IMG/VR virus record: IMGVR_UViG_3300021957_000337
Location: 1-22,657 of that record
From: a virus
DNA length: 22,657 nucleotides
Strand: one strand, 5' to 3'
In this document: piece after piece, positions 3,568 to 10,574 of the stretch
Layout: each line of letters starts with the position of its first letter
How positions within the stretch are numbered: the first letter of the stretch is position 1
Notes under the pieces: model-generated
Told to the model about the DNA's origin: nothing
The model's input: only the letters and a program-made list of their open reading frames with translations
Databases searched by the model: none
Program-made: the position numbers and the translations under genes

Positions 3568-3686
3568 AATAATGAGAGTTTTTAAGGCTCGGGGTAGTTC
3601 CTCCGCCATATTTAGGAGGGGGAGTTTACATTAGGTGGTATATGCATTCACAATTTTAGATAGTAAAAATTTTTTATAGAATTTTG

Positions 3687-3758
3687 TAGCCCCACCAGGA
3701 ATCGAACCTGGAACTAAACTTTAGAAGAGTTTTGTTATATCCGTTTAACTATAGGGCT
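3687..3758 (-). tRNA. tRNA-Arg(UCU)
   Basis: Complete 72-nt cloverleaf: acceptor AGCCCTA pairs with TGGGGCT (one G-T pair), D stem GTTA/TAAC, anticodon stem AAACT/AGTTT with loop CTTCTAA giving anticodon UCU, T stem CCAGG/CCTGG with TTCGATT loop, discriminator A. CCA is not encoded. UCU reads AGA/AGG; AGA is the dominant arginine codon in the genes of this window, so the tRNA would supply late-gene translation. It is on the same strand as the early genes. Confidence 0.93.
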
Positions 3759-4793: not shown

Positions 4794-5065
4794 GAAAAGC
4801 AGGAGTAAATCAAACACCCTACCAGACAAACAAGAAAATAAGAAAAGCAATTGATAAAGTATTAGAACGTAATGCAAACAATTGGGCAAACTTAGGAACG
4901 GGTACACCATTAGATCTAAAGACTAAAGAAGCTACAGAAGAAGCTTGGGTAAATATGAGTAAAATTATTTACAAACTTGATCCAGAGTTTTGGGTTTCTA
5001 TAATGAAACAAACACCAGGTAGTTTAGTAGACAAAGTTCTAAAATTATCCGAACTTACAGAGTAG
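4790..5065 (+). CDS. Hypothetical protein, 91 residues, downstream of winged-helix protein
   Basis: A predominantly helical soluble protein; the N-terminus is basic (KKIRKAIDKVLERNANNW) and the centre and C-terminus form two further helices (ATEEAWVNMSKIIYKLD, SLVDKVLKLSEL). No family is recognised. The start overlaps the previous stop by 4 nt (translational coupling). Its 3' end overlaps the 3' end of the integrase gene by 11 bp, convergently, with no terminator between them, so opposing transcription could interfere. Confidence 0.6.
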   Translation: MRKAGVNQTPYQTNKKIRKAIDKVLERNANNWANLGTGTPLDLKTKEATEEAWVNMSKIIYKLDPEFWVSIMKQTPGSLVDKVLKLSELTE

Positions 5066-6146
5066 GCATGTCTTCAATCTTAAGGTTATCCATATGCACG
5101 TTCAGTGTTTTAAGATAATCCATAGTTATTCTAATACTAGAGTGATCCATAACTGTAGAGACTAGTTGTAAATTCTGTGTTTTATTATACAGGGATACTG
5201 CGGCGGAGTGTCTTACACTGTAAAGCTTCTGGTTATCTTTAATAATATACTTCTCAAGCATCAGTGGTTTTAGTCTTTTCCATTTCTGTAAAAAATAGTT
5301 TCTATCATATTGTTTAGACATTTGCGACCAAAGGTTGAGTGTGCCGGGTACATTGTATGTAAAACTAAGCAGTTCATCTGCAAGTTCTTTGTTTATAGGG
5401 ATCTTACGTCCTTTACCATTCTTAGTAAATCCTTTGGGCACAGATATATGCGTTTGTGTTATGTAAAGAATTTTAAGTTTTCTTATCTCTTGGTGGGGTC
5501 TTAGTAAAGTAAAGTACATAATCTTAGCACATAGGTATAACTCATAGTCTTCTAGCTTAAGCCATAAAAAAAGAGCTTTCAGCTCATCTTCTGTAAATGG
5601 AGTAGGGATTTCTTTACGTTCTTTTAGTTTGGGAATACTTTTGGAAGTGATCAAGTGGATGTTAGCTTTGTTAAGCAGAATAGACAAATGTTTTCGGTTA
5701 CGATTATATTTTGAGGGTGAATCAAATGTATCCAGGAAAGATCTTATATGATCAAGAGTCAAAGCGCTCACGGTCATCTGTTTAGAAGTAAGAAATTTTT
5801 TAAACCTTCCTAACGTCAGGTTTAGAGAGTCTATGTGCTGTCTACCATAAGATTGTTTTACTCTAAGGAGTACAGAATTAAGTACAGAAATAAGTACGTT
5901 ATCTTGCACGCGTTCATATTTACCATCAGAGGGATTCCAGCCTTTCATCATACATGTAGTAAGTTCATCACGAAGTATTTCTAATTGTCTAAGCCTTTCT
6001 GTTCCTTTTTGTCTGTTAGGATAAATATGCAAACCTATGATAGAGCCATTGTACACTCGTTCTCGTTTTGGCGAGCCTATGTAAGATATTTCTATGAAGG
6101 ATCTTTTATAGTTTCTAACTTTAGGAAGTTTGAAATTTGTTCTCAT
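5055..6146 (-). CDS. int: Tyrosine recombinase (phage integrase)
   Basis: A site-specific recombinase of 363 residues. Numbering from the ATG, residues about 85-165 form the SAM-like core-binding domain and 180-350 the catalytic domain. The catalytic set is R216 (LLRPHQEIRKL), a beta-hairpin lysine in GFTKNGKGRK, R312-H313 in YSVRHSA (the usual box II histidine is a tyrosine here), H335 in MDHSS and the nucleophile Y344 in ITMDYLKT. ATG at 6146 was chosen over the GTG at 6158 because the AAAAGG motif lies at usable distance only from the ATG. The gene faces a tRNA-Asp-derived att site 49 bp upstream, with arm-site-like repeats overlapping its start, which suggests autoregulation. It would integrate the phage at a host tRNA-Asp gene. 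Confidence 0.93.
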   Translation of the reverse strand: MRTNFKLPKVRNYKRSFIEISYIGSPKRERVYNGSIIGLHIYPNRQKGTERLRQLEILRDELTTCMMKGWNPSDGKYERVQDNVLISVLNSVLLRVKQSYGRQHIDSLNLTLGRFKKFLTSKQMTVSALTLDHIRSFLDTFDSPSKYNRNRKHLSILLNKANIHLITSKSIPKLKERKEIPTPFTEDELKALFLWLKLEDYELYLCAKIMYFTLLRPHQEIRKLKILYITQTHISVPKGFTKNGKGRKIPINKELADELLSFTYNVPGTLNLWSQMSKQYDRNYFLQKWKRLKPLMLEKYIIKDNQKLYSVRHSAAVSLYNKTQNLQLVSTVMDHSSIRITMDYLKTLNVHMDNLKIEDMPTL

Positions 6147-6147
6147 C

Positions 6148-6160
6148 TGTGTTATCACCT
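6148..6160 (+). repeat. Arm-type-like repeat, copy 1 (TGTGTTATCACC)
   Basis: TGTGTTATCACC covers the leader immediately upstream of the integrase ATG. The same GTTATCAC core recurs twice on the other side of the att core, in the same orientation. Integrase arm sites are typically such short direct repeats on both sides of the core. Confidence 0.5.
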
Positions 6161-6194
6161 TTTAAGTAACACAAATAAAAACAGCTTAAATAAG

Positions 6195-6261
6195 CGGGAT
6201 GGACGGGATTCGAACCCGCGACCTCCTGCGTGACAGGCAGGCATTCTAACCAGCTGAACTA
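6195..6261 (-). other. attP: Phage attachment site (attP core) = tRNA-Asp(GUC) from position 8 to the 3' end
   Basis: The minus strand carries TAGTTCAGCTGGTTAGAATG, the anticodon loop CTGTCAC (GUC), the T arm GCGGG-TTCGAAT-CCCGT and the acceptor 3' strand CCATCCC plus discriminator G. A complete tRNA would need GGGATGG before position 8, but the sequence there is TGTTAAG, which cannot pair. It is therefore not a working tRNA but the 3' part of one, the usual crossover region of tRNA-targeting integrases; insertion would restore the host gene. The integrase gene starts 49 bp away. Confidence 0.85.
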
Positions 6262-6300
6262 CTTAACACTGGTTATAGACCTACATATTTAAATAAATTT

Positions 6301-6322
6301 GTTATCACTTGTGTTATCACTT
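6301..6322 (+). repeat. Arm-type-like repeats, copies 2 and 3 (tandem GTTATCACTT)
   Basis: GTTATCACTT occurs at 6301-6310 and 6313-6322, 12 bp apart, on the far side of the att core from copy 1 (6148-6160) and in the same orientation. Regular spacing of about one helical turn fits cooperative binding by integrase or an excision factor. Confidence 0.55.
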
Positions 6323-6373
6323 ATGAAGTTAATAAATAAACATTAATTGTTAATAACTACAGCAGATTCTATT

Positions 6374-6407
6374 ATTTTATCATAAAATGTCCCTATAATA
6401 CACGTGT
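6374..6407. promoter_or_regulatory. Two palindromes upstream of the rightward promoter (operator candidates)
   Basis: ATTTTATCATAAAAT (6374-6388) is a perfect 7+1+7 palindrome, and ACACGTGT (6400-6407) is a perfect 8-bp palindrome. Both lie just upstream of the promoter-like site at 6421-6451 and beside the att region, where a lysogeny repressor could act. The binding protein is unknown. Confidence 0.4.
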
Positions 6408-6420
6408 TCATAAAAGATTC

Positions 6421-8612: not shown

Positions 8613-10574
8613 ATGTTTGTTAATACAAATGAGTTTAAAAGAGAAGGACTTAATTTTTTAAAATACGGACTATATTGTGGAGACCCACCAGGTAGTGCGC
8701 CTTACTATGAGTACTGGTACGAACAGCTGAGAAGATGCCGAGAAGGGTATACAGTTGGAGATATTCGTATAACAGGACATCATTATTTTTACATGAATTT
8801 TTGTCAAATAAAACTAACTGAAGCCGTTGAAGGTAAAAAAGCAGGTGGTTTTAAAACTGTTTCCTTTCCAGGATTCTGGGATGGGGACTATGAGTATTTT
8901 CATGCTATGGAAAAAGCCGCTGCCGAAGGCAAGCACCTTATAGTTGCTAAAGCTAGGCGTAAAGGTTTCTCATATAAAAACGCAGCTATTGCAGCTAACA
9001 TATACAACACAAGAAAAAATTCTTACACGCTATTATGTGCTCATGATAAAAAGTATTTGTACCCAAAAGGAATTATGACTATGGTTACAGACTACATGAA
9101 CTTTCTAAACGAGCATACAGGATGGCAAAAAAGAAGACAGGGTGTAGATAAAATCAATCACAAGCGCGCTAGCTATCTTGAGTACATTAACAAACAACCT
9201 GTAGAAAAAGGCTATAAGTCTGAAGTAGAGGCAATTACATTTAAAGATAATCCAGATGCTGCTAGGGGAAAAGATGCAAGTCTTGTAATCTTTGAAGAGT
9301 GTGGAGCATTTGATAACTTAAAAGCATCATATCTTGCAACACGTCCCTGTGTGGAAGATGGGGGTGTAGTAACTGGTCAAATTGTATTGTTTGGAACAGG
9401 TGGTGATATGGATGGCGGTACAATAGATTTTGAATCTATGTTTTATAATCCTGAAGCCTACGATCTATATCCTTTTGATAACATATGGGACGAAGGAGCA
9501 CAGGGAAGTAATTGTGGTTTCTTTTTTCCATCTTTTCAAAATAAAATTGGATATATGGATAAAGAAGGTAACTCTTTATCTAAACAAGCAAAACAAGAAG
9601 AAGAGGCAAAAAGAGATCAGCTCAAAAGAGAAGCTAAAGATGCATCTACATTAGATAAGTATATTACAGAATATCCTTGGATGCCTAAAGAAGCTTTCTT
9701 ACAGCAACGTGGTAACATGTTCCCGGGAGCATCTTTAGTAGATTGGCGTAACCAACTTATGCGAACAGGTTTACATAAACAAATGGCTGTAGCTGGTGTT
9801 TTAGTAGAAGCGCCCGAAGGCATTGAGTTTAGACCTGATCCTCGCGTGCGACCGATAGAAAAATTTCCATTAAACAAAACAGATGATTCTACAGGGGCTG
9901 TAGTAGTTTATCAATCACCTGCTTACAAACAAGAATCTATACCAGATGATTTATATTTTATTGTTCATGATCCATATGCATCAGATGGGTTTGGAGCCTC
10001 TCTTGGTTCTGCTTATGTAATGAAACGAATTAACAATATGTCAAAACCAGATGATATGATTGTAGCTTCGTATGTAGGTAGACCAGAATCACAGGATGAA
10101 TATAACTATAATTTATTTCTGCTAGCCCAATACTACAATGCGCGTATAGGGTTTGAGAATGATCGAGGAGAAGTTATACCCTATGCAAAACGAAAGAAAC
10201 TTCTGCATTACCTTATGCCGGAAGCAGAGTTGTTTGACAAAACATCAGGGGTTAGAATACGAAAACTAAATAGAACCTATGGTACATCTATGGGATCTAA
10301 GCAAAGAAAGAACCAAGCCGAAATATATTTGCGTGATTGGTTAAAAACCCCTAGGGGTCAGCAAGAAAACGGCGAAAGAAAGCTTAATTTGCATTATATT
10401 TATGATATCGCTTTAATAGATGAGTTAATTAAATATAATACTAAGGGGAATTTTGACCGTGTGTCATCTTTATTAGTTGGTATGTTTCATATGAAAGATC
10501 TCTATAATAAAGAGTTTGAATCTAAAATGGACGAAACAGAAGATTCTTTTTTTAATAGGAGATTTTTTACGTAA
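8613..10574 (+). CDS. terL: Large terminase subunit (crAss-like)
   Basis: The 653-residue packaging motor. The N-terminal segment YYEYWYEQLRRCREGYTVGD and ITGHHYFYMNFC (residues 31-63) is characteristic of crAss-like large terminases. ATPase: variant Walker A VAKARRKGFS (111-120), Walker B LVIFEE (224-229), coupling motif LFGTGGD (259-265). RNase H-like nuclease: D453 (VHDPYA), E515 (GFENDRG) and D615 (NFDRV) are the expected metal ligands. It pumps and cuts DNA at the portal, whose gene follows after 12 nt. All motifs are intact and length is normal for the group. Assignment is secure. Confidence 0.95.
   Translation: MFVNTNEFKREGLNFLKYGLYCGDPPGSAPYYEYWYEQLRRCREGYTVGDIRITGHHYFYMNFCQIKLTEAVEGKKAGGFKTVSFPGFWDGDYEYFHAMEKAAAEGKHLIVAKARRKGFSYKNAAIAANIYNTRKNSYTLLCAHDKKYLYPKGIMTMVTDYMNFLNEHTGWQKRRQGVDKINHKRASYLEYINKQPVEKGYKSEVEAITFKDNPDAARGKDASLVIFEECGAFDNLKASYLATRPCVEDGGVVTGQIVLFGTGGDMDGGTIDFESMFYNPEAYDLYPFDNIWDEGAQGSNCGFFFPSFQNKIGYMDKEGNSLSKQAKQEEEAKRDQLKREAKDASTLDKYITEYPWMPKEAFLQQRGNMFPGASLVDWRNQLMRTGLHKQMAVAGVLVEAPEGIEFRPDPRVRPIEKFPLNKTDDSTGAVVVYQSPAYKQESIPDDLYFIVHDPYASDGFGASLGSAYVMKRINNMSKPDDMIVASYVGRPESQDEYNYNLFLLAQYYNARIGFENDRGEVIPYAKRKKLLHYLMPEAELFDKTSGVRIRKLNRTYGTSMGSKQRKNQAEIYLRDWLKTPRGQQENGERKLNLHYIYDIALIDELIKYNTKGNFDRVSSLLVGMFHMKDLYNKEFESKMDETEDSFFNRRFFT

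Follow-up and report, generated by a model that had tools for sequence, protein, structure and literature searches.

A tRNA-Asp-derived segment lying beside a tyrosine integrase gene in a 22.7-kb viral contig (22,657 nucleotides, hereafter the window), a fragment of a crAss-like phage genome, most likely represents the core of a lambda-type attP site directed at a host tRNA-Asp gene, at which integration would restore the tRNA; we put the probability of this reading at roughly 0.86. The preliminary description had proposed such an attP next to the integrase gene, and this proposal is now strongly supported by an invariant core, a drifting 5' flank, arm-type repeats at fixed offsets, an integrase under selection, and phage DNA on both flanks (Table 1). 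Judged from the sequence, the tRNA-Asp attP and its integrase are probably functional.

Table 1. Coordinates of the int-attP module and associated features (window positions unless a contig is named)
Feature	Position	Strand	Evidence
attP core: tRNA-Asp(GUC) from G7 to discriminator G73, plus C74; without the 5' acceptor strand	6194..6262	-	sequence; RF00005; invariance in four contigs
Predicted strand-exchange (overlap) region	6230..6236	-	7-nt anticodon loop CTGTCAC between inverted stem CCTGC/GCAGG
Putative arm-type site P1, AGTGATAACACA	6310..6321	-	repeat search
Putative arm-type site P2, AGTGATAACAAA	6298..6309	-	repeat search
Putative arm-type site P'1, GGTGATAACACA; overlaps integrase GTG start	6148..6159	-	repeat search
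Putative arm-type site P'2, GATGAGAACAAA; overlaps integrase ATG start	6136..6147	-	repeat search
Tyrosine integrase, 367 aa from GTG (363 aa from ATG at 6146)	5055..6158 (5055..6146 from ATG)	-	PF00589, E = 8.8e-12; phrog_1, E = 1e-22
int-attP cassette, approximate extent	5066..6383	.	in window and three contigs; absent or deleted in relatives
Deletion scars, two different junctions	L100 5690-5770; L101 5650-5740; L102 5687-5780		
Terminase large subunit	8613..10574	+	phrog_6681, E = 1.8e-141; 38.7% identity to Flavobacterium phage FpV4
Crassvirus-type major capsid protein, phage identifier	14040..15479	+	PF23898, E = 4.4e-88; 30-35% identity to most Crassvirales capsids listed

On the minus strand, positions 6261 down to 6195 read TAGTTCAGCTGGTTAGAATGCCTGCCTGTCACGCAGGAGGTCGCGGGTTCGAATCCCGTCCATCCCG, corresponding to tRNA-Asp positions 8 to 73 with the anticodon GTC. 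The Rfam model RF00005 matched the core over model positions 7 to 64 of 71 (49.9 bits, E = 1.2e-9), indicating that the resemblance to a tRNA is not due to chance, while the seven bases that precede the core, TGTTAAG, could form pairs with CCATCCC, the 3' acceptor strand, at only 2 of 7 positions. Both the sequence and RF00005 thus bore out the content and coordinates given in the preliminary description (tRNA-Asp from position 8 to the discriminator, with TGTTAAG as the 5' strand), although the block common to the four contigs that carry the cassette, here termed carriers, spans 69 bp instead of the 67 bp described, adding G7 and C74. The carriers comprise the window and three other contigs, whose integrases are 95 to 96% identical to that of the window and which have the same att site. 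Among these four contigs, two of which are nearly identical and which therefore amount to three distinct sequences, none of the 69 core columns was variable, compared with 57 of 269 columns in the flanking intergenic DNA (Fisher p = 9e-7). The acceptor positions immediately upstream of the core, in turn, drift among the carriers (TGTTAAG, CGTTAGG, and CATTAGG). The D-arm half (window 6237-6261, minus strand) was as invariant as the rest of the core; by our own estimate from the column counts, about 5 variable columns would be expected for positions 8 to 31 at the flank rate, and 0 were seen. ARAGORN did not call the core as a tRNA in the window, where its sole call was a complete tRNA-Arg(UCU) gene at 3686-3758 on the minus strand. 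That tRNA-Arg gene was also present in L002, L004, L100, and L103 to L105, and was not called in L101, L102, and L106 despite these contigs spanning the region.

Direct repeats of 12 bp with the consensus RRTGAKAACAMA occur as two tandem copies on each side of the core in all four carriers, at offsets of -60, -48, +102, and +114 from the core start that are identical in every carrier. Each carrier contig holds exactly four copies, with none elsewhere in these contigs on either strand. The 35-nt P and P' arms are 83% identical, with a score of 23, whereas none of 500 shuffles exceeded 20, and a scan of the viral contigs for the paired-arm pattern gave matches only in the carrier group. Judging by their sequence and arrangement, these repeats look like putative arm-type sites of the integrase; pairs of arm sites around a tRNA core are typical for lambda-like integrases (PMC10865867). 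In addition, the P' pair overlaps the start of the integrase gene, which makes self-regulation plausible. The arm offsets place the midpoint near +33, and the anticodon loop occupies +25 to +31 from the core start. Since the arms are roughly centered there and the two halves of the anticodon stem are inverted repeats 7 nt apart, the anticodon loop appears to be the likeliest point of exchange, and crossovers centered on the anticodon form a recognized class (PMC4383910).

Several observations speak against the attP reading, namely, that a core of 69 bp exceeds the usual 30 to 45 bp (PMC10865867), that its D-arm half is superfluous for an exchange at the anticodon loop, that no excisionase was recognized in the cassette and no repressor in the fragment, and that the searches described below found neither a matching host tRNA-Asp in the genome collection nor an integrated copy in the viral contigs. 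That the D-arm half is invariant even so could possibly reflect a recent capture, gene conversion with host tRNA genes, or an exchange point located farther 5'.

The distance of 49 bp between the tRNA-like segment and the integrase, as given in the preliminary description, holds for the ATG start, while it shortens to 36 bp if translation begins at the GTG. Residues R220, R316, H339, and Y348 are in place, with Y313 at the position of the first HxxR His in the HP1 integrase, as read by eye from a weak alignment to HP1 (E = 0.98). The dN/dS of the integrase was 0.04 to 0.10 in the carriers, indicating purifying selection and no decay. Close relatives of this integrase were found neither among phages, where Riemerella phages gave the best match (22% identity, E = 1e-4), nor among plasmids, where the best match was a Persicobacter plasmid (24% identity, E = 1e-5). 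Pfam yielded no N-terminal domain, and the quality of the predicted structure (pLDDT 37) was too low for an arm-binding domain to be recognized from the fold.

The cassette is about 1.3 kb long and holds only int and attP; no excisionase was recognized within it, and no repressor was recognized in the 22.7-kb fragment. Contigs L103 to L106 (L104 being the same contig as L013), whose flanks share ∼79 to 83% nucleotide identity with the window over most of their length, are cleanly without the cassette: they contain no integrase, core, or arms, and the upstream gene's stop codon is followed directly by a conserved CTATAATACACG sequence. A conserved CCCTATAATACACGTGT-like sequence at window 6390-6412, upstream of the structural genes, is kept with or without the cassette, which sits just upstream of this promoter-like element. 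Closer relatives, namely, L100 and the pair L101/L102 (∼88 to 92% identity beside the site), bear scars in which the last int codons lie on one side and sequence from the P-arm side on the other. In L100, window position 5081 is joined to about 6320; L101/L102 instead join 5093 to 6312, a junction found in two separate metagenomes. In a tree of the adjacent 1.7-kb region, the cassette-free contigs fell outside the clade with 100/100 support and the scars occurred in two places, so that three changes suffice to account for the distribution of the cassette. Most simply, its history would be one of a single gain followed by at least two losses. Because phage genes border the site to its left and right and its surroundings are collinear with those of the cassette-free relatives, it is identified as attP rather than attL or attR. 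A PF00589 integrase was found only in the carriers among 38 and 11 related contigs, many of which are fragments, and in 0 of 18 complete crAss-like and related phage genomes.

The assignment of the window to a crAss-like phage, also made in the preliminary description, was backed by the Crass_capsid family match, by terminase and portal PHROGs of matching families, and by the capsid identities to named Crassvirales, which provided the best capsid matches in the phage collection (up to 34.7% identity). By analogy with relatives, the 22.7 kb probably correspond to about a quarter of the full phage genome. Its relatives, together with the opinion of the preliminary description, point to a marine phage with a bacteroidote host.

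On the basis of these features, we propose that the phage has the 3' portion of a tRNA-Asp(GUC) gene of its host beside its own tyrosine integrase, which would bind the four 12-bp arm sites (two per side) as well as core sites around the anticodon stem. Strands would then be exchanged near the anticodon loop with the identical sequence in the host tRNA-Asp gene, and the circular phage genome would thereby be inserted into that gene. As a result, the 3' part of the tRNA from the phage copy would join the host 5' acceptor strand, giving one functional tRNA-Asp beside int. The predicted attB is a host tRNA-Asp ending in CCATCCCG. It had been claimed that this host tRNA must begin with GGGATGG; this sequence does pair, but so does GGGGTGG, in which G at position 4 would form a wobble pair with T69, so that the start is less constrained than was claimed. 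No tRNA-Asp starting with GGGATGG, whether by the exact pattern or by one with free positions in the D arm, was matched in a collection that represents each of 84,980 species by a single genome, in which uncultured marine genomes are in many cases absent or incomplete, and with patterns whose fixed acceptor and anticodon stems would miss hosts with GGGGTGG or more divergent sequences. Among the core copies in viral contigs, no attL or attR was found, every copy standing in an attP context. The tRNA body is nearly identical to that of a tRNA-Asp in an Enterococcus record, from which it differs mainly in the acceptor stem; thus, the body alone does not identify the host. The record holding that tRNA-Asp (L091, NZ_CP143580.1) is an Enterococcus faecalis "plasmid" of 747 kb, unusually large for a plasmid.

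What this module does for the phage may be viewed in two ways. First, the cassette could drive rare and transient integration in the course of lytic infection, with no stable lysogeny, an account to which we give somewhat less than even odds; it concerns the lifestyle and is compatible with the attP reading, but would make the term "temperate" wrong. In the T7-like cyanophages, an integrase and a tRNA-derived attP lead to integration in these marine phages and yet form no stable lysogens (PMC8776855), and a similar habit here would agree with the exclusively unintegrated attP forms among the sampled copies, with the window having neither a recognized repressor nor a recognized excisionase, and with the loss of the cassette on two occasions from a locus that otherwise remained intact. 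The regulators, however, may lie outside the 22.7-kb fragment, and the strong selection on int and core argues that integration matters in some lineages. Second, this clade of crAss-like phages may be truly temperate, having acquired integration at tRNA-Asp in one step with the uptake of a minimal int-attP cassette, which some sublineages then deleted, returning to a non-integrating life; to this we give nearly the same odds. If it is true, lifestyle would have switched among close relatives within one crAss-like group. With a complete int-attP module, conserved arm sites, a defined tRNA target, and both carriers and deletion variants occurring naturally within one clade, the question of lifestyle can be tested directly.

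Other explanations concern the module itself. The two different deletions in close relatives and the failure to find integrated copies among viral contigs might suggest a decaying, now nonfunctional remnant of a temperate past, but this is improbable given an integrase that remains intact under purifying selection in all four carriers, a core with no variable site, and the retention of all four arm sites. Even less probable is a separate small mobile element within the phage genome. Although the 1.3 kb are cleanly present or absent relative to the sister contigs, they comprise only int and a single att site and are not bounded by a second one, a related copy elsewhere in the viral contigs was not found, and the junctions left by the two losses differ and lie away from the core, which is not what precise excision would leave; on this junction evidence, an independent element was considered unlikely. 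Finally, a functional phage tRNA-Asp gene, serving perhaps in translation or in tRNA-dependent lysogeny, was rejected as highly improbable, because, despite a body that is complete as a tRNA-Asp body and odd 78-nt tRNA-Asp calls by ARAGORN in L002 and L004 (with none in the window or L003), in each of the four contigs no more than 2 to 3 of the 7 acceptor positions are able to pair, the 5' strand drifts next to an otherwise constant sequence, and tRNA-dependent lysogeny demands that the phage encode a complete tRNA and have a core of ∼10 bp (PMC10865867).

As a probable tRNA-type attP, the site can be placed among known systems. Isolated crAss-like phages have been described as non-lysogenic, without lysogeny modules or related prophages (PMC8375218, PMC8042965, PMC10354031). 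A subset of crAss-like phages has been reported to encode integrases (PMC9980608), so that their occurrence in this group has precedent, and the novelty, as far as our searches show, lies in the complete and conserved attP combined with a series of gain and loss; the module is mechanistically ordinary, while the lineage is unexpected. Within the Crassvirales, the window shares its capsid, terminase, and portal families with crAss001, crAss002, Carjivirus communis, phi14:2, and the epsilon group. Epsilon crAss-like phages have likewise been proposed to be temperate, but the case for them was built on repressor genes and related incomplete prophages rather than on an int-attP module (PMC11054128).

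Similar to the lambda-type systems that target tRNA genes, such as mycobacteriophage attP sites and Islander islands, the window has the 3' part of a tRNA beside int and paired arm-type repeats on both sides, and restoration of the tRNA would be expected; it differs from them in that its core is nearly a whole tRNA, well beyond the usual length, and in being carried by a crAss-like phage. The T7-like cyanophages P-SSP7 and S-TIP37 offer a parallel in an otherwise lytic group with an integrase and a tRNA-derived attP, in their case from tRNA-Leu, although they belong to an unrelated lineage and use a different tRNA. Moreover, the cyanophage att motifs correspond to the first half of tRNA-Leu, whereas the core in the window lacks only the initial six or seven bases of tRNA-Asp. 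Lastly, tRNA-dependent lysogeny as in mycobacteriophage Fionnbharth likewise involves a tyrosine integrase, a tRNA attB, and paired arm sites. In Fionnbharth, the core is ∼10 bp and the phage makes up for the disrupted tRNA with a complete one of its own, whereas in the window the 69-bp core extends to the discriminator, the sole complete tRNA is the tRNA-Arg, and the core itself would rebuild the host tRNA-Asp.
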